Shown here piece by piece: positions 1,525 to 42,100 of a stretch of 42,322 nt of DNA. Within the stretch, counting starts at the first letter, position 1; every line of letters starts with the position of its first letter. Origin of the DNA: a virus; the IMG/VR virus record IMGVR_UViG_3300046482_000204, positions 1-42,322 of that record. One strand, 5' to 3'. Under the pieces are notes generated by a model. That model was given only the letters and a program-made list of their open reading frames with translations, did not search any database and was not told where the DNA came from. The translations under genes were made by a program, and so were the position numbers.

Positions 1525-1748
1525 GGGCGGGGCTCCTCGGGGGCGGGGGTGCAGGAGGCCGCCGTCAGGACCGGGCGCCGGGTTGCCCGTGCGTCGGCTC
1601 CTCCTGCTGCCGAGGTTATTTGCCCGGTGGGCCCGCTCTGGTGGGTCCTCCGGTCGTGATGCCCTGGCCTCCGGGTCTGTTGGGCGGGGTGTGGGCCGCT
1701 CCCGGCTTCCTGGTGGCCGCGCCACTCTCGGCTTGGCGCTGGTCTCAT
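1521..1748 (-). CDS. Possible small ORF filling a 220-bp gap
   Basis: 75 codons. The ATG overlaps the stop of the methyltransferase gene (ATGA), and its own TGA overlaps the ATG of the HTH gene, the same coupling seen at most true gene borders here. Against it, the product is an Arg/Pro/Ala-rich, low-complexity peptide with no recognisable domain, the kind of reading that high G+C yields by chance. If it is not a gene, the stretch is a plain spacer in which I see no promoter or hairpin. Confidence 0.35.
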   Translation of the reverse strand: MRPAPSREWRGHQEAGSGPHPAQQTRRPGHHDRRTHQSGPTGQITSAAGGADARATRRPVLTAASCTPAPEEPRP

Positions 1749-3253: not shown

Positions 3254-3435
3254 GGCTGCGGCTCCTCGGGGGTCCAGGGGCTGGCCCATTTCGTCTCGGG
3301 GCCCTTCTGCCCTCGCCGGCGCTCCTGCTTCAGGGGGATCGTCTCGGTGTCGTGTCCCCGCGCGTCGTGGTCGAAGGCCTCCGCGGTCGTAACCGTCGCC
3401 TGGCAGGTGTGGCAGCGGTGGATGGTGAAGGTCAC
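3250..3435 (-). CDS. Small CxxC protein
   Basis: 61 aa from a GTG at 3435 overlapping the preceding stop (GTGA). Residues 8-11 are CHTC, followed by two histidines (FDHDARGH) that could complete a zinc site like a C2H2 finger. The C-terminal half is Lys/Arg/Glu-rich. It is translationally coupled to the ParB-methyltransferase downstream. Function unknown. Confidence 0.65.
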   Translation of the reverse strand: MTFTIHRCHTCQATVTTAEAFDHDARGHDTETIPLKQERRRGQKGPETKWASPWTPEEPQP

Positions 3436-4042: not shown

Positions 4043-4527
4043 GGGCTGATCCGGTCTGCGAGGGGGTCGCCGGCGCCGGCGGGCTCCTGCGCTCCCTCCC
4101 GTTGGGCGGCCTTCTCGCCTTCGGTGAGCAGCTGGTGGGCGGGGCGGATGGTCGTGTCTCCGCATTCGACGCACATGCCTTCGCGGAGGGGGTTGCCGTT
4201 GCCGTCGGTTTTCAGGCGGCCGTGGCTGTCGCGGGCGTCCTCGATGGCTCGGGCTCCGTGGTGGCCTCGGGTGGCGCATTCGGTGGTCTGCGGGTCGGTC
4301 CAGCCTCGTTCGACGGCGATGCGTGCTCCCTCGTGGCGGAGTTGGCTGAGGGTCGGCGCTGTCCGTTCGCCGGCGGTGAAGTGGTGTTGTGCCGCCTCGT
4401 GGAGGGCTCGGGCGGGGATGCCTCCGAAGTCCCAGGCGGCCTTCTCGACGTGTCGGAAGTTGCGGGTGCCCGGCCAGCGGTCCTCGCAGTATTCGACGAC
4501 TCGGGCGAGCTCAGTGGGTGTTGCCAT
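4039..4527 (-). CDS. Possible helicase-loader-type replication protein
   Basis: 162 aa, overlapping the initiator gene by 17 nt. The N-terminal 75 residues are helical, with a pattern (ARALHEAAQHHFTAGERTAPTLSQL) reminiscent of G39P-type phage helicase loaders, in which an alpha-helical domain is followed by a short Pro/Thr-containing turn. A CVECG motif in the middle may bind zinc. Position directly after an initiator is where phages place loaders, and the phage has no helicase of its own, so it would load the host DnaB. The loader call is inference from context and weak similarity. Confidence 0.5.
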   Translation of the reverse strand: MATPTELARVVEYCEDRWPGTRNFRHVEKAAWDFGGIPARALHEAAQHHFTAGERTAPTLSQLRHEGARIAVERGWTDPQTTECATRGHHGARAIEDARDSHGRLKTDGNGNPLREGMCVECGDTTIRPAHQLLTEGEKAAQREGAQEPAGAGDPLADRISP

Positions 4528-5431
4528 CGGTGTCTCCTGGTAGTTGGTGGGCCGCCTGCTCCTCGAGGGCGGCGAGTCGTTCCCGTCGGCGGGCCTGTTC
4601 GCTGGCGTCGCGGAGGCGGTCGGCGTCCGCTTCGGTCGCCTGGGCGATCTGGCTGCCGGCCCGCTGCCAGTGTTTCTTCAGGCTGGCGGCGGTGAGGGCT
4701 TTCGTCCCCCACTCCCGGATGATGACCGTCGCCCTGCCCTTGATGGCAAGGTCGGGGTCGGGCTCCGCGTTCGCTCTCGCGGCCAGCTGTCCCCAGAGGG
4801 TTCGTTCGCCGGTCTCCTCCGGGTCGTAGCCGAAGACGTCGGTGAGTGCGTCCCAGCCGGGGTTGCGTGGCCTCGGCGCTCTTTCGGGTTCGAAGGTGTC
4901 GCGGAGGACTTCGAGCGCGATTCCCGGCTCCTCCGATGACGGTTCCTCTGACGGGTCTACTGACGGTTCTATGACGGATTGGGTGTCGCCGGTGTCACCC
5001 CCTGGCGTCGCTGGTGTCACCCCCTGGGTGCCATCAGTGTCACCCCCTGGGGTGTCACCAGTGTCGTGGGGTGTCATTTTGTCACCCCCTCGCCGGGCGA
5101 GGGTTTCGCTGATGGTCTCCGCCTCGTGGAGGGGCAGCGGCGTGTCCTCGAAGCGTTCCGGGCGGGCGAGGGTTTCGGGGTGCAGCTGGTAGAGGGGCGT
5201 CTTGGACCAGGTGGCGTCGATGAGGATTTCGACGTAGCCGAGGTCCCGGAGCTGGTGGACGATCCGCTGGGTCTGCCGGCGGCTGTAGCCGGTCTTTTCG
5301 GCGATGGTCGCCAGGCTCGGCCAGGCCCGGCCGTGGTCGTCGGCGAAGTCTGCGAGGGCGATGGCGACCAGCCGTTCGTTGGGCTGGAGGGTCGGGGTGT
5401 AGAAGCATTCGCCGATCTGGCGGATTGACAC
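4511..5431 (-). CDS. Winged-helix replication initiator with origin iterons inside the gene
   Basis: 306 aa, GTG start at 5431 preceded by AGAAGGGAG. Residues 14-72 form a helix-turn-helix initiator domain (LQPNERLVAIALADFADDHGR, then PSLATIAEKTGYSRRQTQRIVHQL), typical of phage and plasmid replication initiators. A flexible Gly/Asp/Thr linker (about 113-155) is encoded by the iteron DNA; the C-terminal 120 residues are helical and charged and may bind a loader or helicase. Origins embedded in the initiator gene are known from lambda O and relatives. The wHTH is visible; the initiator role rests on domain, iterons and neighbours. Confidence 0.72.
   Translation of the reverse strand: MSIRQIGECFYTPTLQPNERLVAIALADFADDHGRAWPSLATIAEKTGYSRRQTQRIVHQLRDLGYVEILIDATWSKTPLYQLHPETLARPERFEDTPLPLHEAETISETLARRGGDKMTPHDTGDTPGGDTDGTQGVTPATPGGDTGDTQSVIEPSVDPSEEPSSEEPGIALEVLRDTFEPERAPRPRNPGWDALTDVFGYDPEETGERTLWGQLAARANAEPDPDLAIKGRATVIIREWGTKALTAASLKKHWQRAGSQIAQATEADADRLRDASEQARRRERLAALEEQAAHQLPGDTDGNTH
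4993..5090 (-). repeat. Iteron cluster, candidate replication origin
   Basis: Four exact copies of AGGGGGTGACA (minus strand) lie at 5003-4993, 5025-5015, 5048-5038 and 5090-5080, with a degenerate copy near 5060-5053. Three neighbouring copies sit 22 and 23 bp apart, about two helical turns. One copy is read in a different codon phase (Gln-Gly-Val-Thr) from the others (Gly-Gly-Asp), so the DNA word rather than the peptide is conserved. Confidence 0.7.
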
Positions 5432-6888: not shown

Positions 6889-6932
6889 GGTGGGCTCCCT
6901 TCTCGTGGCTTCCGTGTCGCTGTTGGTTGTCT

Positions 6933-22643: not shown

Positions 22644-22999
22644 GGTGGTGTCGGGTTCCCGGCGGTGCCGATGGCGAAGCGGAAGAGGCCGCTGTGCTCG
22701 AAGCTGGTCCCTCCGTTCGGGCTGAGGCGGATGCGGGCCTCGTAGATGCCGGTGGCGTACTGGCTGTAGTCGGGGGTCCAGCGGATGACGCCGGGGTTGA
22801 GCTGTTGGACGGTGATGCCGCCGGGGGTGGCGACGGCCTCCTTGGTCCTCAGGTCCCAGACGTCGATGGCTTCGTCGCTGTAGCCGGTGAGGTTCCAGTC
22901 GCCTCCGTCGCGTTGGAGGGGGAGGTCGATGGGGGTGAGGCCGCTGGCGTTGGCGCCGGCCGCTCCGATTTCGCCGAGGTTGGTGGTCGCCTGCGTCAT
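22640..22999 (-). CDS. Ig-like structural protein (BppU N-domain-like)
   Basis: 119 aa. The strand pattern LPLQRDGGDWNLTGYSDEAIDVWDLR, ITVQQLNPGVIRWTPDYSQYATGIYEARIRL and FEHSGLFRFAIGTAG is that of an immunoglobulin-like domain common on phage particles. It follows the long repeat protein by ATGA overlap and may attach to it. Confidence 0.6.
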   Translation of the reverse strand: MTQATTNLGEIGAAGANASGLTPIDLPLQRDGGDWNLTGYSDEAIDVWDLRTKEAVATPGGITVQQLNPGVIRWTPDYSQYATGIYEARIRLSPNGGTSFEHSGLFRFAIGTAGNPTPP

Positions 23000-25900
23000 G
23001 TGTCCTCGCTCGTGTCTCCCTGGTGGCGGATGGTTCCGCTGCGGCTCTGGCTCTGCACCTGTCCTCGGCGGTTCCCCTGGCCTCGCACCAGCTTAGAGAT
23101 CGGGCCGGCGAGAACGTTGAAGATCTGGGTGGCGACGGTGGCGCTGGTGGCGATGGCCGCCTGGAGGGTGAGGCGGGCCCGCTTCCTCGTCGCGCCCGTC
23201 GGGCTGAGGGTGCCGGTGAGGCGGCGGCGGGTCTGGCGGGTGATGGTGCTGGCTGCCGCCAGGCTGGCGGTCAGGCGTTTGGCTGTCTTGCGGGTGACGG
23301 CTCCTGCGCCGGCGATGGTGGCGCTGGCGGCGAGGCGGATGGTGGCTCGGAGGGTGGCGGCCGCGGTCGGCGCGACGGTCCCCTCGTGGGTCTGGGCAGC
23401 CTTCTTCCGGGTGGCGCCGGCGGGGGTGGCGGTGCCTTCCATGGTGGCGGCGATGCGTCGGAGGAGGCTGCCGGCGGTGGTGAGGGCTCCGCCGACTTGG
23501 ATGAAGAATCCGCCGGGGTTGACTTCGGTGGTCAGGCTGCCGGCCGCGGTGAGGGCGCCGGCCGCCCGGTTGAGGGTTTTCGCCGTCCTCGCTCCTGCGG
23601 CGGTGATGGCGCCTTCGACGATCGCCCGGATGGTTCTCCTCAGGGCGCCGGCGGGGGTGACGGTCCCGGTCTTGGTGGTCCGGGTGCGGGCGGTGCGGGC
23701 TCCGGTGGGGGTGGCGGTCCCCTGGAGGGTTTTCGCTGCGCTCAGGAGGGCGGCGCCGGCGGTGCCGAGGGCGGCGGCGATGGTCTTGCGGGTCTCGCGG
23801 GCGAGCGCTCCCGCTGGGGTGAGGGTTCCGTCGAAGAACCTTTGAATGGTGTCGTCTACGAGTTCGTGTTGGCTGGCGCCGGTCGGGCTGATCGTCGCCG
23901 CCATGTCGAGGAGGGTTTTCCCGAGGCGGGCTGCCGCCGGGGCGATCGTGGCGGTGAGGGCTTTGCCGGCTCTCCTCGTGATGGCGCCGGCGGGCGTGAT
24001 GGCGCCCGTCTTGGTGGTCTGCGTTTCACGTGAAACGGTGCCGGCGGTGCCGATCGAGCCCGCCTGGTCGAGGCCCGCCTCCTTGGTGGTCTGGCCGGTG
24101 CCGGTGATGGTGCCGGCGTAGGTGCGGGGGCTCCGCTTCGTGGTGGTGGCTGCTGGCGTGAGGCTCCCGGCGGCCACCTTTTGTGTCATCCGGGCGAGGA
24201 GGCTTGCCGGTGTGACGGTCCCCGCAGCGGCCAGGAGCCTCAGCCGAATCAAGTTTAGGGCTGCTGCGGGGGTGATCGTCCCGGTCTTTGTGCTGCGGGC
24301 CCTTTTCGTGGCCGCTCCGGTGCCTGTGACGGTCCCTGTGGCCGTTTTCGTGGTCTCTGCGGTCCTGGTGCCCGCCGGGCCGATTTGGCCTGTTTTGGCC
24401 GTTCTCGTGGTTCTCCTGACGGCGGCTGCTCCGGTGATGGTCCCGGCGGCGGCGAGGAGGACGACGATGCGGACGGCGGCGGCGGCTGTGCTGGTGATGG
24501 TGCCGGCGAGGGTTTTCCGGGTCCGCTTCGTCGCTGCGCCTGCCGGGGTGACGGCGCCGGCCTTGGTCGTGGCCGTCTCCTTGGTCGGCGCTCCCGCCGG
24601 GGTGATGGTGGCGGCGAGGGCTTTCCGCGGCCGGGCGGTGCGGGCTCCCGCCGGGCTGATGCTGCCGCTCATGTTCTCCTGTTCGGTGTTCCCGAAGGCC
24701 AGGTCGAGCTCGTAGTACTCGATGTCGCCGTTGCCGGCTGCGACGAGGATGGCGACCGTGTCGGCGTCGACGACGGCGGCGCTCAGGCGGGTGCGTCCTG
24801 CGCTGCCCGCGACGAGCTCTCCGAAGGCGGTCCACGTGCTCCCGCCGTCGGTCCGCCAGGCGCCGTAGATGCCGTCGGCGGCGTCATCGATCCAGAGGAC
24901 GACTCCCTTGGCTGCGCTGCTTCCGGGGTTGACGCCGAGGGCGACGACGCTCTGCTCGTAGGCGGCGTCGAAGGCGTCCCTCGTTGTCACGGTCTCGAGG
25001 CTCGGGGTGGGGCTGTCCGCCGAGTCGAAGACGAGGGCGGTGATCCCTCCTCCGTCGGCCTGAGGGTGGGCGCTGACGACTCGCCAGACGGTTCCGTTGC
25101 TCCAGCCGGCTCCGACTCCGAGGCGTGCCAGGTCCTCGCTGGTGGCGTCGGCTCCTGGTTCGGTCTGGGTGGTGTGGTTGCTGCGGAGGGTCCGCTGGCG
25201 GACTCCTTGGGCGCTGTCGGCGTCGGTTTTCCCGTAGAAGACGTGCTGGCGGCCGTCGGCGCCCACCATGTCGTACAGGGTGTGCGGGGTGGCGGTGATG
25301 GTGACGTTGCTGCCGGTGTCCTGGACGAGGCGGCTGACGAAGAGGGCGAAGGTGCTCCCGGCGTCGGCGGCGGTCTTGTAGGCGTCGGCGGTCCCCTGCT
25401 TCTCGTTGATGCGGACGTTGTCGTTGTCGGCGGCGGTGCCGGCGCTCGCCGTCGCCGTCCTCGTCACGGTCGGGCTCAGGTCGGTCGGGTCGACGCCGGT
25501 GATGACTCCTCGGGGGCTCGAGCTCGTGCTCGTCCTCGCGTAGGCGACGATGTCGCCGGCGGCGTTGAGGATGGCGTCGAGGGTGGTGATGGTGTCTCGG
25601 GTGCTGGCGTCGAAGGGGGTGTTGGCGACGATGCCGCTGTTGCTCGTCACCAGTTCGGCGATGGGCGCGACCGCCTCCCAGTCGCCGGCGTCGTGGCCGT
25701 CGCTCGGGGCGGTCCCCTCGAACAGCCAGGCGAGTTTGCTGCTGGTGTCGATGCCGATGGCCCAGCGGCTGCCGTCGGTGGTCCAGGGCCCGGCTCGGCC
25801 CTTGCTGGGCAAGCTGACGGCGCTCCACGACGGCGGTGCTCCCAGCGGCTGGCCGGTGAGGAGGGGGATGCAGACTTCGACGGCGGCGACCTGGAGGGTG

Positions 25901-26910
25901 GGGCCGGCGCTGCTGTCGGCGTCGACTCGGACGGCGAGGTCGTTGAGGGCGATGGCGGCGATGTTCTCGACGGTGCTGTCCCAGGTGACGGGGAACTCGT
26001 ACCAGGCGTAGCTGGTGCTGGTGATCGACTTGAGCAGGCTGACGCTGAGGATGGCGCTGTCGCTGCTCCGGGCAATGTTGCCGGTGAAGGTCCGGGTGCC
26101 GCTGGTCGCGTTCCGGGCTCGGATGCGGATGCGCCAGCCGACGTAGGTGTCGGGGGCGCTCGGCTCGGCGAGGTCGAGGAAGCAGGCGTTGCCTCCTCCC
26201 GCCTCGCTGATGATGTCGCTTTCGCTGCCGCTGCTCTTGGCGTCGTCGTCCACCTTCGACCAGAGGGGGGCGGTGCTCCAGCTGCCGGCGCTGATGTCGC
26301 CGATCGGCCGGATGATCTCGTAGGGGGCTCCGATGACCTGGTTGGTGAGGGCGCCGGCCGGCGTGACCGTGCCGCCCATGTTCTCCTGAAACGTGGTCCC
26401 GCCGGGCGTGTAGGTGATGCGGACTTCGAGGGCGTCAAGGCGGATGAACGAGCCGTCCGACCCCATGTTGGCGGCGTAGTTGTTGACGATGCGGAGGCGG
26501 AGGCCGTCCCAGAGGCTCTTGTTGGTGACGTTCTGGGGGCTGGCGAGGCTGAGGTAGCCGACGCTGGCCAGGGTGGTGCTGGCGAGGTTGCCGCTGTTGA
26601 CGCTGTTGGTGAGGGCGGTGCTCTCGTTGCTCTGGAAGATCTGGAAGGTGAGGGAGACGGTGTCGTTGACGTAGGTGGTCGGGTCCATCCGGTAGCGGAA
26701 GCGGATGTCTACGGCGGTGATCTCTCCGAAGTCGGCGGGCATGTCGGTCATGCCGAGGAAGACGGTGTTGCCGTTGCCGCCGGCGCCGCTCCCGGCGGGC
26801 AGGATTTCGTTGCCGTCGGTGCTCGTGGCGAAGTCGTCTAGCCAGTCGGTGTCGATCGTCCCCCAGCCGTTGGTGTGGAGGGCGTTGGCGATGAGGGTTG
26901 CGGTCGCCAT
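22996..26910 (-). CDS. Large virion surface protein with tandem PAGA repeats
   Basis: 1304 aa. Residues 1-180 are a jelly-roll-like module. Residues 340-740 look like a beta-propeller or sialidase-like region (WTTDGSRWAIGIDTSSKLAWLF, TAFGELVAGSAGRT). From about 743 to 1260 the chain is made of more than 25 imperfect repeats of 16-20 residues with core G-T-I-T-P-A-G-A and an Arg/Lys-Thr tail. A parS palindrome lies in this repeat DNA. Encoded by the largest gene in the head-tail region. It is probably a fibre or appendage attached near the neck or capsid; exact role unknown. No enzymatic motif seen. Confidence 0.6.
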   Translation of the reverse strand: MATATLIANALHTNGWGTIDTDWLDDFATSTDGNEILPAGSGAGGNGNTVFLGMTDMPADFGEITAVDIRFRYRMDPTTYVNDTVSLTFQIFQSNESTALTNSVNSGNLASTTLASVGYLSLASPQNVTNKSLWDGLRLRIVNNYAANMGSDGSFIRLDALEVRITYTPGGTTFQENMGGTVTPAGALTNQVIGAPYEIIRPIGDISAGSWSTAPLWSKVDDDAKSSGSESDIISEAGGGNACFLDLAEPSAPDTYVGWRIRIRARNATSGTRTFTGNIARSSDSAILSVSLLKSITSTSYAWYEFPVTWDSTVENIAAIALNDLAVRVDADSSAGPTLQVAAVEVCIPLLTGQPLGAPPSWSAVSLPSKGRAGPWTTDGSRWAIGIDTSSKLAWLFEGTAPSDGHDAGDWEAVAPIAELVTSNSGIVANTPFDASTRDTITTLDAILNAAGDIVAYARTSTSSSPRGVITGVDPTDLSPTVTRTATASAGTAADNDNVRINEKQGTADAYKTAADAGSTFALFVSRLVQDTGSNVTITATPHTLYDMVGADGRQHVFYGKTDADSAQGVRQRTLRSNHTTQTEPGADATSEDLARLGVGAGWSNGTVWRVVSAHPQADGGGITALVFDSADSPTPSLETVTTRDAFDAAYEQSVVALGVNPGSSAAKGVVLWIDDAADGIYGAWRTDGGSTWTAFGELVAGSAGRTRLSAAVVDADTVAILVAAGNGDIEYYELDLAFGNTEQENMSGSISPAGARTARPRKALAATITPAGAPTKETATTKAGAVTPAGAATKRTRKTLAGTITSTAAAAVRIVVLLAAAGTITGAAAVRRTTRTAKTGQIGPAGTRTAETTKTATGTVTGTGAATKRARSTKTGTITPAAALNLIRLRLLAAAGTVTPASLLARMTQKVAAGSLTPAATTTKRSPRTYAGTITGTGQTTKEAGLDQAGSIGTAGTVSRETQTTKTGAITPAGAITRRAGKALTATIAPAAARLGKTLLDMAATISPTGASQHELVDDTIQRFFDGTLTPAGALARETRKTIAAALGTAGAALLSAAKTLQGTATPTGARTARTRTTKTGTVTPAGALRRTIRAIVEGAITAAGARTAKTLNRAAGALTAAGSLTTEVNPGGFFIQVGGALTTAGSLLRRIAATMEGTATPAGATRKKAAQTHEGTVAPTAAATLRATIRLAASATIAGAGAVTRKTAKRLTASLAAASTITRQTRRRLTGTLSPTGATRKRARLTLQAAIATSATVATQIFNVLAGPISKLVRGQGNRRGQVQSQSRSGTIRHQGDTSEDT
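24022..24037. promoter_or_regulatory. parS-like palindrome, site 2
   Basis: CGTTTCACGTGAAACG: the 14-base core GTTTCACGTGAAAC (24023-24036) is identical to the bacterial parS core, with C/G flanks. It lies in the coding region of the repeat protein, encoding VSRET by GTT-TCA-CGT-GAA-AC, codons that are rare in this genome. Confidence 0.85.
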
Positions 26911-26911
26911 G

Positions 26912-27256
26912 TCACACGGCCCTGCGTTGGGCTCGGCGGGCGGCGGCCCAGGCTCGAAGTTCGGGGGCGGGTTCGGCGGCCTCGGGTTCGCCGGCGAAGC
27001 AGCATTGTGGTTTCTGGCCGGCCGGCCAGTCCCCGCAGTCCGCGAACGGGCGTCCGGTCGCCTCCTCGACGTCGTCCCAGGCGGGCCTCACCTGCGTCTG
27101 GTAGCGGGCGTCGGCGTGCACCTTCTCCCAGCTGCCCAGGGCCCGGCGGAGGCCGCAGGCCCAGCGGCGGCCGGGGACGGTCTCCACCTCGAGGAACGGG
27201 CACGGGCTCCCTGCCAGCCAGCAGCAGTGGTCGGCCGGGTTGCCGTGGCAGGTCAT
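26912..27256 (-). CDS. Cys-rich hypothetical protein
   Basis: 114 aa. Nine cysteines in three clusters (CHGNPADHCCWLAGSPC, RWACGL, FADCGDWPAGQKPQCCF) suggest bound metal or iron-sulfur. The phrase CCWL...CPFLEVETVPGRRWACGL marks a hypothetical family I recall from other phages, with no known role. It has no ribosome binding site; TAGCAT ends 8 nt before the ATG, and a terminator hairpin sits directly upstream. Confidence 0.68.
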   Translation of the reverse strand: MTCHGNPADHCCWLAGSPCPFLEVETVPGRRWACGLRRALGSWEKVHADARYQTQVRPAWDDVEEATGRPFADCGDWPAGQKPQCCFAGEPEAAEPAPELRAWAAARRAQRRAV

Positions 27257-27264
27257 GGGCGGTG

Positions 27265-27270
27265 ATGCTA
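27265..27270 (-). promoter_or_regulatory. Leaderless promoter, -10 TAGCAT
   Basis: CTAGCATCACCGCCC before the ATG at 27256, 8 nt from box to codon. Its first base is also the last base of the terminator stem at 27270-27300. Confidence 0.5.
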
Positions 27271-27300
27271 GAGACCCCGCCGTGCCCTGGCGGGGTCTCT
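27270..27300 (-). terminator. Strong hairpin terminator
   Basis: A perfect 12-bp inverted repeat (AGAGACCCCGCC / GGCGGGGTCTCT) with a 7-nt loop lies 24 nt past the stop of the zinc-ribbon gene. It is symmetric, so it could act on either strand, and it ends capsid-region transcription before the tail genes. Confidence 0.7.
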
Positions 27301-27324
27301 CGTCGCTGCTGTCCCGGTTCGGGG

Positions 27325-27480
27325 TCAGCCGGCCTTGGCGGCCTTGGCCTTGATGGTGTTCGGCTTGCCGCAGTGGGGGCACTGCCAGGTCGTGTCCTCG
27401 TCGGTGGCGATCGAGGCGGCGAACACTTCGGCTTCCTTCTTGCAGTTGCCGCACTTGACGGTCTTGGTCTTGCCTGCCAT
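27325..27480 (-). CDS. 51-aa zinc-ribbon protein
   Basis: MAGKTKTVKCGNCKKEAEV... with CxxC (10-13) and CPHC (34-37), a full four-Cys zinc ribbon, and a Lys/Ala tail. AGAAGGAGC-type site before the ATG. Looks complete and well conserved in pattern. It could be a small structural stabiliser or DNA-binding protein. Confidence 0.7.
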   Translation of the reverse strand: MAGKTKTVKCGNCKKEAEVFAASIATDEDTTWQCPHCGKPNTIKAKAAKAG

Positions 27481-27495
27481 GGGGCTCCTTCTCGT

Positions 27496-28215
27496 TTATC
27501 CGCCGGCGGCGAGGGTCAGGTCGTAGGTCGATTCGAGGCTGTCGCCGTTGCCGAGGTTGACGGTCGAGAAGACGGTCCGGTCGAGGAGGGTGCCGCCTCC
27601 CGTCGCCGCCTGGCTCAGGATGCCGTGCTCCACGATGGCGACGGCGCTGTCGACGGTGTTGGTGCCGACGGTCCTGAAGATGTTGGCGCTCGCTCCCTCG
27701 GTCAGCGTCCCGGTCGCTCTCGTGTTGTCCGGGTTGTACTGGGTGGTGAGCTCGGTGCCGAGGGCGGTGTCGCCCTGCGCTTCGGCGGTGTTGTTCGTGC
27801 CGATGCCGTGGAAGCGGAGGATCTCCGGTTCCACGGTGCCCTGGAGGGCGTCGACGAGGAAGTTGACGCCGGCGGTGGTCACGACCCTCATGCCGGCGAG
27901 GCCGAGTTCGAGGCGGCCGCCCTCGGGGGTGATCTTCACCAGCCAAAGCTGCGACCACATGTGGGGGAGCTCGAGGCGGCGTGCCACTCGGCGGGCCCGC
28001 AGGTTCTTGCGCATGCCTCGGAAGACGTGGCGGCTGTTGTCGGCCCGCCAGTCGTTCACCTCCTCGGGGAGGCCCTTCTGGGGGAAGCCGTGCTCGATCG
28101 TTTCGAGCAGGGTGAGGGGGCGGGCGATTCCGCTGCCCTCGTTGAGGGCTTTGGCGGCTCTCACGATTCTCAGGTCTACGGCGCCCGAGGGTCGGGCGGT
28201 GGCTCCTGCCTTCAT
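27496..28215 (-). CDS. Structural protein of the head/appendage region
   Basis: 239 aa, GAGGAGC before the ATG. The first third is basic and helical (LRARRVARRLELPHMW); the C-terminal 140 residues are a beta-rich module (FHGIGTNNTAEAQGDTALGTEL, ILSQAATGGGTLLDRTVF, LESTYDLTLAAGG). That module recurs in many phage virion proteins, but its function is not settled (fibre or decoration protein). Its promoter leaves a 35-40-nt leader. Confidence 0.6.
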   Translation of the reverse strand: MKAGATARPSGAVDLRIVRAAKALNEGSGIARPLTLLETIEHGFPQKGLPEEVNDWRADNSRHVFRGMRKNLRARRVARRLELPHMWSQLWLVKITPEGGRLELGLAGMRVVTTAGVNFLVDALQGTVEPEILRFHGIGTNNTAEAQGDTALGTELTTQYNPDNTRATGTLTEGASANIFRTVGTNTVDSAVAIVEHGILSQAATGGGTLLDRTVFSTVNLGNGDSLESTYDLTLAAGG

Positions 28216-28259
28216 TGCTGTTCGCTCCTCTGGCTCGGGCGGCTGCGCTTGCGGGTGTG

Positions 28260-28265
28260 AGGCTA
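28260..28265 (-). promoter_or_regulatory. Late promoter, -10 TAGCCT (with leader)
   Basis: GCTAGCCTCAC matches the leaderless late boxes, but the ATG at 28215 is 44 nt further and has its own GAGGAGC, so this member of the family makes a leadered mRNA. Confidence 0.5.
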
Positions 28266-28297
28266 GCGCGGGGGTCCTGGCGGTTGGCGGTTTCTCC

Positions 28298-29017
28298 TCA
28301 GGCGTAGTCCTCCTCGGCGATGTAGTCGGCTCGCCGGTGGAAGATCGAGGCGGGGAACACGTCGACGTCGGTGGTGGCCATGGCGACGGGGGTGGGGCTG
28401 TCCGGGGTGTCCGCCCGGCCGAGGACGGTGTCCTCGTAGGCCTTCTCCCAGGTGCGTGCCGCCTCGAAGAGGGGGGCGGCGTCCCGCTGGAAGAGGTCGC
28501 CGGCGACGCTGGTGCTCTGCTGCCGGGCGAATTCGACGGCCTTGCCCTTGGCGACGTTGGCGGCTGCGAGGTCGGCGACCGCCTGGGCGTAGGGCTCGGG
28601 GATGGGGGCGGTGTCGTCGGCCGGGTCGTCGTCGGGGAAGGCCCAGGCTCCGGTGAAGCGGAGGCGGATGTTGTCGGTGCCGGCGGCCGGCGCCTCCTCG
28701 AGTTCGAGGGTGTCGTCCCAGACGGCGTAGGCCTGGCTGTCGATGTACTCGCGGGGGATGCTGCCGGTCGGGTGTTCGACGCTGATGAGGCGGCTCCAGC
28801 CGGCCACCCAGCCGTCGAGGGCGGCGAGGTCGAGGGTTTGGGTGGTGCCGTCTCCGCTGGCCGTGTCGGTCCGTTCCGCCGGCCGGTCCTTCGTCAGGGT
28901 GCTGAGGGCCCGTTCGAGGGCGAGGGGGATGCGCTCCTCGCCGATGTGCTGGAGGATGCCCAGGTCTCCCAGCCGGTCTCTGATGCGGTCCTCGTATTGG
29001 CTGCGGCTCCACGTCAT
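28298..29017 (-). CDS. Head-tail adaptor protein
   Basis: 239 aa. First 45 residues are helical (YEDRIRDRLGDLGILQHIGEERIPLALERAL), the middle beta-rich (VEHPTGSIPREYIDSQAYAVWDD), then a helical region (AQAVADLAAANVAKGKAVEFARQ). This matches phage head-tail adaptors (gp6/gp15-like) that dock onto the portal, and it follows the capsid gene. No ribosome binding site; TAGGCT ends 6 nt before the ATG. Confidence 0.65.
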   Translation of the reverse strand: MTWSRSQYEDRIRDRLGDLGILQHIGEERIPLALERALSTLTKDRPAERTDTASGDGTTQTLDLAALDGWVAGWSRLISVEHPTGSIPREYIDSQAYAVWDDTLELEEAPAAGTDNIRLRFTGAWAFPDDDPADDTAPIPEPYAQAVADLAAANVAKGKAVEFARQQSTSVAGDLFQRDAAPLFEAARTWEKAYEDTVLGRADTPDSPTPVAMATTDVDVFPASIFHRRADYIAEEDYA

Positions 29018-29023
29018 GCGGTC

Positions 29024-29029
29024 AGCCTA
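29024..29029 (-). promoter_or_regulatory. Leaderless promoter, -10 TAGGCT
   Basis: GTCTAGGCTGACCGC directly before the ATG at 29017, 6 nt from box to codon. Same motif as at the portal gene. Confidence 0.5.
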
Positions 29030-29160
29030 GACGCGGGGGGAGGCCGGGCCTGGATGTTGAGAGACACCTTGGCGCCGGCCTCCTCCGGAGGGGCTCCCTC
29101 GGGGGTATTTCGAGGGTTTGCCTTGTGGGCGAGACGGCTGTGGGAGGCCGCTCGCCGGCC

Positions 29161-29189
29161 ACTATGCCAGCCGGCGCGTCGGCTGTCTA
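29161..29189 (-). promoter_or_regulatory. Sigma70-like promoter downstream of capsid gene
   Basis: TAGACA (29189-29184), 17-bp spacer, CATAGT (29166-29161). The CATAGT box is the same as that of the strong promoter at 37951. It would drive the adaptor and tail genes with a leader of about 135 nt. Confidence 0.5.
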
Positions 29190-29267
29190 GTGGGCCCTGG
29201 GCCCGGTTCTCCCGCCTCCGCCTTAGCGGCTTGTGGGGGCGGGGCTCCGGGCCCGCTGGGGCTCGTG

Positions 29268-31709
29268 TTAGGCGTTGGTCGCCCTCTGGAATCCGCGGTA
29301 GTCGAGGACGGTGAGTCCCCAAATGTGGCGGATCTTCCAGGTGAACTCGTCGTTGGTGAAGACCGACCCGACGGCGGGTTGGTCCTGGATGAGGAGTTCG
29401 GGGTCCTGGCGGCCCTGGTAGAAGCCGACTTCGATGGTCGGCACCGTGTTCGGGTCGGCGATCAGGTACCAGTCGTTGGCGTCCGTCAGGGTCGGCACCT
29501 CGATCGGCACCAGGCCCTGGTACGGGTTCGGCGTTGTGGCGCTCTCGGTCGCGCCGATGGTGCTCGTCCCGCTCTGCGTGATCTTGAAGGCCGTGTCCCA
29601 CAGCTCCGGGGGCACCACGAGGAACCGTGGCATGAGGCCGACGAAGCCGTTGGTCTCTCCGGGCTGGGTCTGGCGCAGCATCCTCCGTCGCAGCGTCGTG
29701 ATCCCCGCCTCGGCGAGGGGGGTCGTGGCGTTGTCGTTGAGGTGGCTGACGTTGTGGAACAGCGCTACGGCGTCGTAGATCGTGGCGTTGCCGGCGATCG
29801 TCGTGTTCCAGATGGCCCGGTAGAGGGTGAGGGCTGCCGCCCGTCCGAGGTTCCGGGGGATGCGGCGGAGGGCGCCGAGGTCGTCGTTGGCGACCATCTC
29901 GAGCGTGTAGTCCTCCGTGCCGCCCTTCTTGGTCACGGCGAAGGTCGCTTCCTCGTCCGTCGGGCTGGTGAGCGCCGTGTACGGGCCGCTCTCCGCCACG
30001 GTCGGCAGGACGTCGTAGCCTCCGACCCTCACGCGCCGGTTGGTGCGGAAGTCGGGCGGGCTCGTGATGTCGCTGACGATCTGGCGCCACGAGTCGTAGG
30101 CGTTGCTCTGGTACTCCCGGATGAGGGCTCGCCTCACGCTGTCGCCCAGGGCCTCCGCCCACGAGGCGGTGGTGAGGGATTCGGTGAGTCTCCGGGCGTC
30201 GTCGTAGCTGGCGTAGGCGCCGACGGCTTCGGCGAAGATTCGCCGGTTGAAGTCCTCCTCTCCCATGCCGTTGGGCTGGACGCCGGTGAAGGCCGTGTAC
30301 GCCTGCTTGATCGACCTGAACGGCGGGGTGTCTCCCTGCTGTTGGCCGGCGACCATGCCGTCGAGGGCCTCCTGGAGTTTGTCCCGCTGTTCGGTGGTGA
30401 CGGTGATCCGCTCCTGGCCGGGGAGCTGGCTCGGCCGGCTCGCCAGGGCGGCGTCCCAGATGCTGGCGGTCGCTGCCGCCGTCTCGAACACCTGCGCTTC
30501 GGTGACGTCGTCGCCGAGGGTTTCGGTGAGCCGGGCGATGGCCGCCTCGGTGAGGTTGTGCTCCCTGCCTGCCGCCTCAATGGTGAGGCTGCGCATGGTG
30601 CGGCTCAGCGGTGCGTCCGTCTCCCGCTCCGGGGCGGGGGTCGGGTCGGGTTCGCCGGCGCCGGCTGCGGCGGCGGCTGCCCTCTCCTCGGTGATGGCCT
30701 CGGCGATCTGCTCCCACTCGGGGTGGGCTTCGTACGCTTCGGTCAGCTGAGCCTCCGTGAGTTCCCCGGCGCGCAAGGCCCGGAGGAATTCCTGTAGCTC
30801 CATTTCTGGTCCTCCTTCTTGCCTCGATGCGACGAGGCGCTCGATCTGCCCGCCGGCCGACGGGTCAGCGACGACGTCCACTGAGTGGACTTCGACGATC
30901 TTCCGGACGTCGCTGATGCGGCGCCGGTCCACCAGGACGTTCTCCGTGAGGGCGGAGACGTCGTGGCTGAAGCCGATGAGGTCTGGGCGCTTGTTCCTCC
31001 AGGCGGTGAGGAAAAGCTGGCGGATGTCCTCGCGGCTCTCCGCAATGTGGAAGTCGCTGGTGAGGCTGCCGTCCGCCTGGACTTGGATGTTTTCGTGCCA
31101 GCCGGTCATGCCGGCGACGGCGCTCCGTCTCCGCTCCTGCGGGTCCCGGTGGCCGTCGAAGCTGCGGGCTCCCTCGTAGAGGGCTGCCGCCTCCCTCAGG
31201 ACTTCGGGTCGGTAGCGGCGGCCGTTCTTGCTGATGCCGGGGCGGACCATGGTGACTCGCCAGATGCGGCCTTCGTCGGCGCCGTCGACCGACTCGAGGA
31301 TGGCTCCGCCGAGGCCCTCGGGGGTCAGGTGTTCGGGCTGCGGGTCGGGTGTTTCACGTGAAACGTCCGCCTCCTCGACGGCGGCGACGTTGAGGGTGAC
31401 CGTGACCTTCTCGGGGTTGCCGAACGTGACTTCGGGGCGGCCGCCCGCGGTGGTGAGGGTGTAGGGGATGCGGACGGTGTCCTCGTTGAGGCGGGCGAGC
31501 AGGTTGTCCTCGTACACCTCCTCGACGTGGTTCCAGGTGCCGCCGTCGGGGTTGCTCGGCCACTGGCCTTCGAAGGCGCGGTGTATCGCCTCTAGGCGGG
31601 TCGTGATGCTGTTCGGGTCGGTGAAGGCTTCCCCGGCTCGGGTTGCGGCTGTCTGGGCGGCCGCCGTCCCGGCCGTTGCCTCTTGCAGCCTTTGGACGGC
31701 GTGGGTCAT
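29268..31709 (-). CDS. Capsid maturation protease fused to Mu gpT-like major capsid protein
   Basis: 813 aa. Residues 130-290 have a prohead protease layout: MVRPGISKNGRRYRPEVL, then GH187RD and the GFS248HD block, which could supply catalytic His and Ser. Residues 300-480 are Ala/Glu-rich linker or scaffold. Residues 480-813 resemble the Mu gpT-type major capsid protein (FHNVSHLNDNATTPLAEAGITTLRRRM; VPPELWDTAFKI). One chain would therefore carry protease, scaffold and shell, needing self-cleavage. The codons for VSRET (116-120) form a parS site. Confidence 0.75.
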   Translation of the reverse strand: MTHAVQRLQEATAGTAAAQTAATRAGEAFTDPNSITTRLEAIHRAFEGQWPSNPDGGTWNHVEEVYEDNLLARLNEDTVRIPYTLTTAGGRPEVTFGNPEKVTVTLNVAAVEEADVSRETPDPQPEHLTPEGLGGAILESVDGADEGRIWRVTMVRPGISKNGRRYRPEVLREAAALYEGARSFDGHRDPQERRRSAVAGMTGWHENIQVQADGSLTSDFHIAESREDIRQLFLTAWRNKRPDLIGFSHDVSALTENVLVDRRRISDVRKIVEVHSVDVVADPSAGGQIERLVASRQEGGPEMELQEFLRALRAGELTEAQLTEAYEAHPEWEQIAEAITEERAAAAAAGAGEPDPTPAPERETDAPLSRTMRSLTIEAAGREHNLTEAAIARLTETLGDDVTEAQVFETAAATASIWDAALASRPSQLPGQERITVTTEQRDKLQEALDGMVAGQQQGDTPPFRSIKQAYTAFTGVQPNGMGEEDFNRRIFAEAVGAYASYDDARRLTESLTTASWAEALGDSVRRALIREYQSNAYDSWRQIVSDITSPPDFRTNRRVRVGGYDVLPTVAESGPYTALTSPTDEEATFAVTKKGGTEDYTLEMVANDDLGALRRIPRNLGRAAALTLYRAIWNTTIAGNATIYDAVALFHNVSHLNDNATTPLAEAGITTLRRRMLRQTQPGETNGFVGLMPRFLVVPPELWDTAFKITQSGTSTIGATESATTPNPYQGLVPIEVPTLTDANDWYLIADPNTVPTIEVGFYQGRQDPELLIQDQPAVGSVFTNDEFTWKIRHIWGLTVLDYRGFQRATNA
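31350..31365. promoter_or_regulatory. parS-like palindrome, site 1
   Basis: TGTTTCACGTGAAACG matches the 16-base parS consensus at 15 positions, including the full 14-base core (31351-31364). It lies in the protease-capsid gene and encodes VSRET (116-120) with codons otherwise avoided here. Confidence 0.88.
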
Positions 31710-32115: not shown

Positions 32116-32319
32116 TCAGTCGGCGAGTTCCGCCAGGCGCTGTTGGATGGCGTCGGCGACGGCCGGGGGGGCTGCGGCGAAGGCGGGAAGTTCGACGATG
32201 GTGCGGACCGCCTCCTCGGTCGCCTGCGTCGCCCACCAGTCCGGGTCCCGTTCGAGGTCCCAGGTCGCCTTCGTCCAGTCGGCGTCGGGGAGGCTGGCGT
32301 CGGGGGTGCGGGTGGTCAA
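32116..32319 (-). CDS. Small acidic protein after MuF-ART
   Basis: 67 aa from TTG at 32319 overlapping the MuF stop (TTGA); no better start in frame. Contains DWTKATWDLERDPDWWATQATEEAVRTIV and a helical end. Small, acidic and directly linked to a gene with a toxin-like domain, so an immunity or chaperone role is worth testing; nothing in the sequence proves it. Confidence 0.55.
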   Translation of the reverse strand: MTTRTPDASLPDADWTKATWDLERDPDWWATQATEEAVRTIVELPAFAAAPPAVADAIQQRLAELAD

Positions 32320-34595
32320 TAGATGAGCCCGACGGTTTCCGCCTGGGCGGCGCCGATGACAACGAACTCGTATTCGTTGAGGCAGCCGAATCCGCTGAGG
32401 GTGCAGCCGAGGATGCGCTCCTTGGGCACGTCGGCGTAGATGAGGCTGTGGCCGAACCGGCGGGCGGTGGTCGTGTTGATGGCGAAGCTGCTCAGGGGGT
32501 TGAGCATAACGGGGACGTGCTGGATGGTGCCGCTGGCTCCGAGGCTGGCTGCCATGCCGCGGACGAGGCGGATGGTGTCCTTGCCGGGGAAGAGGCGGGT
32601 GAGCTCCTCCTGGGTCTCCTGGTACATGGCTTCGAGGAACGTGTCGAGGACGTCGCCGTACTTCCCGATGATCGTGTCCACGTTGGCGCCGAGGGTGTTG
32701 CCCTCGTAGATGCTGCCGGCGGCGCCGTAGCTCCGGTCGAGGTTGTCGAGCCGGTCGGCGTATCCGACGGGCGGCCAGGGGAGGTCGAACTTGTCGGCGG
32801 CTGCCTTCTGGAGGGCGAGGGCCCAGCGGTGGTTGTCTCCGCTGGTCGCCGCCCAGTTCTGGACGAGGCGGCTGGCGACTTCCTGGTAGACGTCGGCGGC
32901 GCCGTAGGTGCGGCCGTATCCGCCGGCGTTGAGTTCGGCGCTGAGCTCGAAGAGCAGGTTGGCCTTGTCGGGGATCTCCGCCTCGAGGCGGCGGCCGATG
33001 CGGGTCATGATCGACTGTTTCATGTCGCTGGCCGCTCGGGCGTCCTTCACGGTGACGGTTTCACGGCCGAGGATGGCCTTCACGCGGGCGATGAAGTTGC
33101 CCTTGCTGACGGGCGGCTTGGTGGTCGAGTGGAGCGTCCCTGCGGGCTTCAGGGCCGCCAGGCGGCCTCGTGGGCTCGCGGTCGCCGGCCGTGCCGGTGG
33201 TGGCGGCGGCGGCGGCGGGGGTGGTGGGGGTTTCGGCTTGGGCGGGTCGGGTGCTGCCGCTGCCGGCGGGGTGGTCGTGTAGGCGACGGCGGCGGGCGGC
33301 TCGGGAATGTCGAGGTGTTTGACGATCTGCGCCTTCGTCGTCGTGTTGAGGCCGGCGTTGTCCATGAGGGCGAGCTGCTCGGCCGGGTCGAGGGCGTCGA
33401 AGTCGGGGAGCTGCTTCCCGGCCGGCGCCTTCGGGTGCTTCCACGCGCCGAGGGTGCTGTCCCATTTGAATCCGCTTGCCTTCGCCGTCGGGTGGCCGAG
33501 TTTGGCTGCCATCACCTGGCCGCCGTAGCCGGTCCCTCCGGTCTTGAGGCTTTTCACTGGGCTCAGGCCGGCGCTGCCGTAGGGGTCGGCGAGAAATGCG
33601 CTCGCCTTGGCGTCGAGGGCTTTGGTCTTGGCCTCGGCGGGGGCGGCCGCCTCCGCCTTCGCGGCGGCGTAGTTCGCTTTCGCCGGGGCGGTCGTCGCCG
33701 GGTTCGCGGTCGCCTGGGCGCTGCCCTCGTCAATGATGGTGACGCTGACGCAGTGGCAGTGGACGCTCTCGCTGGGGGGGAGGCTCGGGTCCTTCGGGTA
33801 GAAGGCTTTGAACCCTCCCACCTGGTAGAAGGCGTTGTGCTCGATCGGGCCCGTCTCGCCCTCCGGGCCGTAGCGGGCCTCCGCCTCGAGGTGGGTGGTC
33901 CGGGCTCCTGGCAGGTGGGCGTTGAGCCAGCGTTTCCTCACGACGGTCGGGTCGCCGGCTGCGGCGAGGCTGTGGGCGAGGGCGGTCTGTGCGTTCTGGC
34001 TGCCGAGGGCTTGGGCCCGTCCGGTTTCGGTGACGACGATGGCTCGGGCCCGGTGGGCGATGGTCGAGAAGTGGTTCTTGTCGGTGAGGTTGGCGCCGAT
34101 GGCGAGGGCTGCTGCGTGGGGGCTTTTCGCTCCGATGACGACGGCGCTGATCTCGGCGTTGATCCGCTTCCTCAGTTGGGTGCTCACGTCCTGGACGAGG
34201 TCGGCGGAGAAGCCCTGGAGGATTTGGAGCTGGTCGACGGTGATCGCCGCGCTCAGGGCTTCGACTCCCGCCCGGCCTCCGAGGGGTTTCGTCGCCAGGT
34301 CGACGCCGGTGGCGTATCCCTTCTCCTGGAGGCCGCTGATGGTGGTGCCCATGGTTTCGGCGAGGTTGGCGACGGTCTGGTCGATGCCGGCTTTCGCCCG
34401 GTTCAGCATCGCCCGGCTCGGGCTGTCCCAGTCGAGGCCGGCGAGCTGGTTCTGGACTTCCGCTCGGGCGCTGTCGAGGAGGCCGATCATGGCGGTCTCC
34501 GCCTCGCCGCTCAGCTTCCCGATTTCGCCGAGGAGGGCGTACAGCTGGCTGGCGTATTCCTCCGGGCTCGTCGCCTCCCGGAGCCGGGTGGTCAC
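32316..34595 (-). CDS. MuF head morphogenesis protein fused to ADP-ribosyltransferase-like domain
   Basis: 759 aa from GTG at 34595 (GTGA overlap with portal). Residues 1-215 are helical and residues 218-284 carry the MuF signature: RKRWLNAHLPGARTTHLEAEARYG ... YPKDPSLPPSESVHCHC. A Pro/Lys tract (about 452-468) precedes a C-terminal domain (590-755) with the R-S-ExE pattern of arginine-type ADP-ribosyltransferases: R679 in IRLVRGM, S702-S703-F704, and E741-Y-E743. MuF proteins travel in the phage head, so the domain could be injected with DNA to modify host proteins, as T4 Alt does. Activity is inferred. Confidence 0.75.
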   Translation of the reverse strand: MTTRLREATSPEEYASQLYALLGEIGKLSGEAETAMIGLLDSARAEVQNQLAGLDWDSPSRAMLNRAKAGIDQTVANLAETMGTTISGLQEKGYATGVDLATKPLGGRAGVEALSAAITVDQLQILQGFSADLVQDVSTQLRKRINAEISAVVIGAKSPHAAALAIGANLTDKNHFSTIAHRARAIVVTETGRAQALGSQNAQTALAHSLAAAGDPTVVRKRWLNAHLPGARTTHLEAEARYGPEGETGPIEHNAFYQVGGFKAFYPKDPSLPPSESVHCHCVSVTIIDEGSAQATANPATTAPAKANYAAAKAEAAAPAEAKTKALDAKASAFLADPYGSAGLSPVKSLKTGGTGYGGQVMAAKLGHPTAKASGFKWDSTLGAWKHPKAPAGKQLPDFDALDPAEQLALMDNAGLNTTTKAQIVKHLDIPEPPAAVAYTTTPPAAAAPDPPKPKPPPPPPPPPPPPARPATASPRGRLAALKPAGTLHSTTKPPVSKGNFIARVKAILGRETVTVKDARAASDMKQSIMTRIGRRLEAEIPDKANLLFELSAELNAGGYGRTYGAADVYQEVASRLVQNWAATSGDNHRWALALQKAAADKFDLPWPPVGYADRLDNLDRSYGAAGSIYEGNTLGANVDTIIGKYGDVLDTFLEAMYQETQEELTRLFPGKDTIRLVRGMAASLGASGTIQHVPVMLNPLSSFAINTTTARRFGHSLIYADVPKERILGCTLSGFGCLNEYEFVVIGAAQAETVGLIY

Positions 34596-36046
34596 AGGCG
34601 CTCCTGGAGCTCCTCGAGCTTGCCGCTGGTCTCGGCTCGCCGGCGGATCGACTCGAGGGCCGCCCGCAGGTCCTCGTCGGTCGTCTCCTCGTCGTCGGGG
34701 TCGGGGAGTTCGTCGGCGGGCACTCCGAGGCTGGGGAGCAGCCGGCGGACGACGACTCTCATGGCCTCCCGGTCGATGACGTCGAGCATGTCGAGTTGGG
34801 TGAAGGCGCCGGCGACGGCGGCGAGGCTGGTGGCGGCCGCCTCGATTTCGTCGTCGGTGAGTTGGGGGGTGACGACTTCGACGAGTTCCCCGGCGGGGGC
34901 CCGTTCGCCGGTCGGGTTGCCCTGCTCGTCGTGGACGGGGACGACGGCGGGCAGCATGCCGGCTGCCACCTTCCGGTCGACGGCGAAGCGGACGAGCTCC
35001 TCGGTCTGCGCCTTCCAGATGGCCTGCGTGTCCTGGAGGCTGCGGAGGACGGGAATGTCCATTTGTTCGGCGGTGCTCCGGTTGGCGTCCTCGGGGTCGC
35101 CCAGCCAGTGGGGGGCGAGGCCGGCGCCGGTGGCGATCATGCGGAGGATGTAGGTGGCGGCGGCTACGTCCTCGTGGGCTCCAATGTTGGGCTGGGTGGC
35201 GTTGATCTCCATGGCGTCGGTGCGGAAGCGGACGCTGCCGCTCCTCGGCGCCGTGGTCCCCCACACTCTCTTGGCGGCCTCCACCTCCGTCTCGCCGCCG
35301 ACGACGCCGACGTCCCAGAAGAAGGCCCGGACCGCTTTGATCCGTTCGAGAAGCTCCCAGAGGGTCTGGTCGTAGGCGTCGAGCCAGTCGAGGATGGGGA
35401 GGAGAAACGGGGTGCCTCGGGTGGCCGCTCCGATGCGGTCGTGGAGCCAGGCGAAGGTTTCGCCGGTGAGGAGGCCGAGGTCGTCGAGGGCGGGGTCGGT
35501 CTGCCGGTGGATGATGTCCAAGGCTTCCTCGTCGCCGTTGCCTCTCCTCAGGACGACCTGTTCGAGGATGAGCTGGTTGAGTTCGCTGGTCGTGATCTTG
35601 TCGACCCGTTGGGGGTCGATGAAGCCGACGGTCGTGTTGCCGGTGTCGTCGGTGGCGACCGGGTGGATGCCCTCGCCGTAGAGGAGCCAGTCTCGGGCGA
35701 ACCGGCGGTGGTTGAGGTCCATCTCGTTGCGTTCGGCGTACCAGAAGTCGTCGGCGGTCTGCTGGACGTCGGGGTTGTCGCAGCTGATGGTGAAGCCGTC
35801 GCCGGCCATGAACGTCGTGTAGATCTTGATGATCCGGTTGGCGAGGGGGTTGCGCCGGTAGAGGTCGATGCTGAGGTCCTGGGCTCGGCGGAGGGTGGCG
35901 CCCTGGAGGTCTCGGAGGCCTCCGCCGGCTGTCCGGTAGAGGTTGTCGTCGGGGTCGATCGGGGCGGCCTCCTCGACGTGGTAGTGGTGTTCGATGCGGG
36001 CGTCGGCTCCTCGGAGGGCGGCCCAGGCGTCGGCGAGGCGGCTCAT
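34592..36046 (-). CDS. Portal protein
   Basis: 484 aa. Portal features: helical start, LSIDLYRRNPLANRIIKIYTTFMAG, GDGFTI, WLLYGEGIHPV, an RVDKITTSELN segment, and the FFWDVGVVGGETEVEAAKRVWG and HWLGDPEDANRSTAEQMDIPVLR blocks near the stem, ending in an acidic tail. It forms the 12-fold ring through which DNA is packed, and it is followed by MuF as usual. No ribosome binding site; a TAGGCT box lies 10 nt upstream. Confidence 0.85.
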   Translation of the reverse strand: MSRLADAWAALRGADARIEHHYHVEEAAPIDPDDNLYRTAGGGLRDLQGATLRRAQDLSIDLYRRNPLANRIIKIYTTFMAGDGFTISCDNPDVQQTADDFWYAERNEMDLNHRRFARDWLLYGEGIHPVATDDTGNTTVGFIDPQRVDKITTSELNQLILEQVVLRRGNGDEEALDIIHRQTDPALDDLGLLTGETFAWLHDRIGAATRGTPFLLPILDWLDAYDQTLWELLERIKAVRAFFWDVGVVGGETEVEAAKRVWGTTAPRSGSVRFRTDAMEINATQPNIGAHEDVAAATYILRMIATGAGLAPHWLGDPEDANRSTAEQMDIPVLRSLQDTQAIWKAQTEELVRFAVDRKVAAGMLPAVVPVHDEQGNPTGERAPAGELVEVVTPQLTDDEIEAAATSLAAVAGAFTQLDMLDVIDREAMRVVVRRLLPSLGVPADELPDPDDEETTDEDLRAALESIRRRAETSGKLEELQERL

Positions 36047-42028: not shown

Positions 42029-42100
42029 CGTGGTTCTCCCTTCTCGTGAGCTCCTGGCGGGAAAGGGTAGGGCGCTGTGAGGCTGGCAGCTGGTGTTTCC

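Follow-up and report, generated by a model that had tools for sequence, protein, structure and literature searches.

Exact chromosomal parS palindromes in the coding linkers of high-GC phages, candidate sites for capture of host ParB

Gene content and parS sites of the window

The window, by which we mean the whole stretch of DNA that was analysed, is IMG/VR virus record IMGVR_UViG_3300046482_000204 (42,322 bp, 70% GC) and comes from a soil phage. The alignment of a relative, G2, crosses the window ends, which suggests that the genome is near-complete and circularly mapping. Besides the genes in Table 1, the window encodes a terminase large subunit, a portal protein, a tape measure protein, a tail spike and an endolysin. 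The repeat gene lies in the late-gene block and adjoins the tail genes, and its product gave no family match. Its repeat array and that of contig L124 are both fast-evolving and alanine/threonine-rich, with units of about 20 amino acids. The open reading frame that combines a head-morphogenesis region with a match to dinitrogenase-reductase ADP-ribosyltransferase resembles the MuF-effector fusions of actinophages.

Table 1. Features of the window and two comparable features of other contigs
Feature	Location	Strand	Description
ParB_N-N6/N4 DNA methyltransferase fusion	1745..3289	-	no HTH_ParB detected
Replication-initiation O-like protein (HTH_36)	4511..5431	-	without parS in the window; the G5 homologue has parS
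CACGAGAAGGGAGC, exact	6894..6907	-	
Repeat gene	22996..26910	-	1304 aa; C-terminal half a degenerate repeat array (GTITPAGAxTRxTxK-like); carries parS site 1
parS site 1, GTTTCACGTGAAAC exact	24023..24036	.	encodes VSRET (minus strand); lies within one unit of the low-complexity repeat array
Capsid/protease gene	29268..31709	-	major capsid and maturation-protease fusion protein; carries parS site 2
parS site 2, GTTTCACGTGAAAC exact	31351..31364	.	VSRET, in the N-terminal linker of the capsid/protease protein
Head-morphogenesis ORF	32316..35264	-	MuF-like region; C-terminal match to DRAT (PF07357)
CACGAGAAGGGAGC, one mismatch	42035..42048	-	
Repeat array, contig L124	15140..17134		
ParB_N protein without HTH, contig L199	523..1266	+	

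The 14-bp palindrome GTTTCACGTGAAAC is the core of the chromosomal parS site (PMC7022226). We find two exact copies in the window, both at the positions given in an earlier note on this DNA and both in minus-strand genes. A scan of both strands of the window at up to 3 mismatches found no further site; dinucleotide shuffles of the window hold a mean of 0.34 sites at this threshold. The earlier note was right that such copies are rare, and its figure of 1.6e-4 expected copies was too high: a second-order Markov model gives 3.9e-5, the lower value reflecting the 70% GC of the genome. Its placing of both sites inside structural genes holds for the capsid/protease fusion; the other gene encodes the low-complexity repeat protein.

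Both copies are read in the same codon phase (GTT, TCA, CGT, GAA and a final AC) and both encode VSRET, as had been claimed. The shared phase is weaker evidence than it had seemed because one of the three phases of GTTTCACGTGAAAC is closed by TGA, leaving VSRET or FHVK as the only possible readings. The claim of unusual codons is borne out, with GTT, TCA and CGT each accounting for about 2% of its codon family in the window and a joint probability of 2.8e-6 for the site's codon choice given VSRE. On the coding strand the two sites match the 16-bp consensus TGTTTCACGTGAAACA at 14 of 16 and 15 of 16 positions, that is, not in full. The outer bases are only partly matched, which we count against a reading by host ParB.

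The palindrome is kept in relatives at other places

Two relatives are divergent from the window, at about 70-80% nucleotide identity: G2 (IMGVR_UViG_3300037499_000324, 28.6 kb), whose capsid protein has 61% amino-acid identity to that of the window, and G5 (IMGVR_UViG_3300042731_006720, 35.2 kb), of which contig L126 is a 99.9% identical fragment. The family set consists of these three genomes, besides near-identical fragments of the window virus, and additional IMG/VR scans for members returned the same few contigs only. We found no prophage relatives in the genome contigs scanned with capsid and terminase alignments, and cultured phages gave neither a near-DNA match to the window nor a match to the repeat protein. 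A second word, CACGAGAAGGGAGC, is common to the window, G2 and G5 at non-orthologous places. It resembles the Shine-Dalgarno motif near gene starts that has been described for Microbacterium phages, and its total in the window is not above that in shuffles.

The repeat-gene homologue of G2 contains two exact parS copies, 162 bp apart; the G2 capsid gene has none, and in the alignment the VSRET stretch of the window is replaced there by an unrelated linker. G5 contains one exact copy, in a linker of its replication initiator; G5 is incomplete, with the capsid gene among the missing parts, and may have further sites. The Markov model predicts 3.1e-5 exact copies in G2 and 2.7e-5 in G5. All five sites across the three genomes are perfect, all read VSRET, and all lie in linkers or low-complexity protein. 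When 14-mers common to the three genomes at non-orthologous places are ranked, the parS words come first with a log10 P of about -23, compared with -15 for the best unrelated word.

As judged from these alignments, the DNA word is kept across the window, G2 and G5 and its protein context is not. A site that is exact yet relocated in relatives implies selection on the DNA word with its position free, and selection at the DNA level, as the earlier note had proposed, is strongly supported by this relocation together with the improbable VSRET codons. The related genomes were also scanned, as that note had advised, for synonymous loss of the palindrome with VSRET kept. No such case was seen; palindrome and peptide are lost together.

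parS in other viral contigs

Across IMG/VR viral contigs we observe parS in at least 120 stretches, compared with 20 in total for the reversed palindrome, which has the same composition. The Markov expectation in the sampled stretches is not higher for parS than for this control. The excess of at least 6-fold is a lower bound against one control palindrome, with its uncertainty unmeasured. Multi-site stretches account for 17 of the 120 among the parS matches listed versus 0 of 20 controls, and most records among the matches listed carry one to three sites. Sites are found inside genes for the terminase large subunit (L013, L104, L006), portal (L053, L011, L040) and tail (L092, L024) and in a DarB-like gene (L005), and for these ORFs, short contigs apart, host contamination is an unlikely source. 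The VSRET phase is used by 32 of 48 sites in ORFs of at least 200 aa among the matches listed.

Four contigs, L018 (IMGVR_UViG_3300029906_000047), L030, L075 and L103, contain clusters of 4 to 6 exact parS copies, arranged in L018 as three tight pairs with a spacing of 24-38 bp. This architecture is unlike that of single coding-embedded sites, and the clusters are possibly plasmid-like centromeres or host fragments.

parS in cultured Microbacterium phages

In a first cultured panel (phiC31, SV1, R4, phiSASD1, VWB and others), 15 of 16 phages have no site, and Paschalis alone has parS. In cluster EC (Quhwahvirus, Metamorphoovirus), parS lies in the linker of an HTH protein, a non-structural gene. 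The palindrome is exact in Paschalis, NoodlelyBoi, ClearAsMud, Ariadne and Teamocil, has one mismatch in RobsFeet and two in Fireman, and is absent from Jayden, Merry, Margaery and Yeti, 4 of the 12 sampled EC-cluster phages and kin. Because of these absences, and those in 15 of 16 phages of the first panel, parS is not essential. Tyrumbra has a symmetric variant, GTTCCACGTGGAAC, in which both half-sites and two amino acids are changed and the palindrome is kept; this variant fits the Myxococcus parS consensus (PMC3899335). Over eight EC phages, conservation is 0.96 in the 14 bp versus 0.65 and 0.71 in the flanks, and the exact EC copies extend to a 20-bp palindrome, gatGTTTCACGTGAAACatc, and match all 16 positions of TGTTTCACGTGAAACA.

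Yeti and Paschalis both grow on Microbacterium foliorum and are 95% identical over a 1.2-kb region from which Yeti lacks the site. Yeti is therefore a natural site-less counterpart of Paschalis and provides a natural test on one host species. A lytic lifestyle is described for cluster EC, and integrases are reported for cluster EH and one singleton only (PMC7302621).

The window lacks a recognizable partition system

The window gave no AAA_31 match at E<=1 that would indicate a ParA ATPase. Its only ParB-like protein is the ParB_N-methyltransferase fusion, in which Pfam detects no HTH_ParB even at E<=1, in agreement with the earlier note, so that neither ParA nor a site-binding ParB with a helix-turn-helix was found. 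The structure prediction for this protein (mean pLDDT 38.5) was too poor to add anything. A search for integrases of the tyrosine type found none in the window.

Among the parS matches listed, we examined 50 records picked for GC or multiple sites for canonical ParB. None scores over the TIGR00180 cut-off, and six give weak matches. ParB_N domains occur in 9 of 50 longer parS records, a set overlapping with the previous one, versus 1 of 20 control records, a difference too weak to claim an association. EC-cluster phages encode another ParB_N protein, including those without parS, and a ParB_N protein without HTH is present in both parS phage families that we studied closely (window and L199; Table 1).

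Comparison with known systems

The phi29 genome contains four TGTTTCACGTGGAACA sites and one weaker site, and its annotation has no parAB genes. Entrapment of the phi29 genome in spores by Spo0J is described in a passage of PMC9437464 that cites Meijer et al. 2005. The window likewise combines parS-type sites with the lack of parAB. Phi29 is virulent, as EC phages are reported to be, and host ParB is reported in that passage to act on phi29 DNA, whereas for the phages here the evidence comes from sequence. Phi29 also differs in being a podovirus of low GC whose host forms endospores; the phages studied here are high-GC and not related to it, and their sites have moved among genes. Spore formation is not known in Microbacterium, and for this reason the benefit here would not be spore entrapment alone.

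Another mobile element, SGI1, has two parS mimics that bind the ParB of its IncC helper plasmid and stabilize SGI1 (PMC10954446). Like the window, it has two sites, and it borrows the ParABS of another replicon, as we propose for the window phage; unlike the window, it is an integrative element rather than a phage, and it exploits a plasmid system rather than a chromosomal one. Extrachromosomal mycobacterial prophages are plasmid prophages with their own parABS (PMC7157519). As in our proposal, ParB and a centromere site would serve to partition the genome of a phage, but these prophages have their own partition genes, while the window has neither ParA nor canonical ParB and has the chromosomal 14-mer as its site. 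Phage ParB_N-methyltransferase fusions, one of which the window encodes, may serve in anti-defence or phage-host interaction according to the sections of PMC12704722 devoted to them, which draw no link to chromosomal parS.

The principle is thus known from phi29 and SGI1, and the earlier note's proposal of a new strategy was overstated, given that phi29 has parS-like sites with reported use by Spo0J. What is new is chromosomal parS embedded in the coding linkers of high-GC, unrelated phages at mobile positions, lytic phages of a genus in which sporulation is not known included. The open-access literature that we searched, which leaves subscription papers and preprints outside its scope, yielded no report of such phage sites beyond phi29.

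Capture of host ParB as the proposed mechanism

Chromosomal ParB loads at parS and then slides as a CTP clamp (PMC7053999, PMC12704722). We propose that both window palindromes are loading sites for host chromosomal ParB, retained by selection on DNA, and that they sit in tolerant linkers and repeats of genes because a compact phage genome would have little other room. Host ParB would bind phage parS, close as a CTP clamp and slide onto adjacent phage DNA. Host ParA, and possibly SMC, could then treat the ParB-loaded genome as one more chromosome origin, and it would be positioned and passed to daughter cells (or spores) whenever the lytic cycle runs slowly or is postponed.

The phage has neither ParA nor a site-specific ParB, making host ParB the obvious reader, and since no HTH is detected in the fusion and most of the parS records examined have no ParB of any kind, we favour recruitment of host ParB, a reading for which genome comparison gives good support. 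That host ParB binds these sites is, to judge from sequence, very probable. The benefit is less firmly placed: co-segregation or positioning is most likely, the precedents of phi29 and SGI1 placing it ahead of titration, compaction or regulation, although the gain for a fast lytic phage is not obvious. The whole chain, from parS through loading of host ParB to co-segregation of phage DNA, we consider to lie just on the probable side of evenly balanced.

Different uses of the bound ParB have to be weighed against co-segregation. The sites could be decoys, the multiplying phage parS drawing ParB clamps off the host origin and so upsetting host segregation and division for phage production. The sites are few, yet they would be multiplied by replication; SGI1 parS copies destabilize the helper plasmid in a dose-dependent manner (PMC10954446), and phages described as strictly lytic, to which inheritance matters less, have the site. 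A decoy should however profit from many sites, and most records do not have them, so that we regard this use as unlikely. Somewhat less likely still is that host ParB brings SMC to the phage genome, for compaction or organization in replication or packaging or as a shield from defence. ParB at parS is a known adaptor for SMC (PMC8494293), one site suffices to load clamps, and sites are often in head and packaging genes; but many late genes are simply long, and the position of the site varies freely, in no case coinciding with a packaging or replication landmark that the phages share.

A third use would be regulatory, with ParB spreading from parS to silence or time nearby genes as an element of late transcription. 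Repression of genes close to parS by chromosomal ParB is known (PMC7022226), and the late block holds both window sites. However, the G5 site is in the replication-initiator gene, the Microbacterium phage site is in a non-structural HTH gene, and sites occur within genes at inconsistent places. Their free movement between structural and non-structural genes weakens this explanation, which we consider improbable.

It is very improbable that the reader is instead the phage's own ParB_N-methyltransferase, with the palindromes as its binding or methylation signal. The fusion is encoded by all three family members, and the EC phages have their other ParB_N protein, but the lack of a detectable HTH_ParB, the small fraction of parS records with ParB_N and its presence in EC phages without the site all speak against such a role. 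The window has 10 copies of the core CACGTG, making a 14-bp word an odd methylation target, and in our preferred reading the fusion stands outside the parS mechanism. That the sites are due to chance, or to a constraint on VSRET as protein, is scarcely credible: RET tripeptides are natural in the repeat gene, but exact copies are hardly expected in the window and parS is over-represented in viral contigs, while other RET-type peptides have GC-rich codons and VSRET is not kept at the same place in relatives.

Implications for phage biology

Relatives of the window and unrelated phages with the same tag suggest, at the level of sequence, that many phages may borrow the host machinery for chromosome sorting. 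Whether capture of host ParB, and hence of ParA/SMC, through coding-embedded parS is widespread and repeatedly evolved in double-stranded DNA phages, strictly lytic phages of non-sporulating hosts included, is in our view an even call. Parallel to this, searches for parS in metagenomes can match phages, and VSRET linkers may reflect a function of the DNA rather than of the protein. If host ParB is captured as proposed, the bacterial chromosome-segregation machinery would be a common phage target, and the site would predict which phages use it. If such capture is widespread, phages with no partition gene of their own would gain through it a positioning, inheritance or protection like that of a chromosome.
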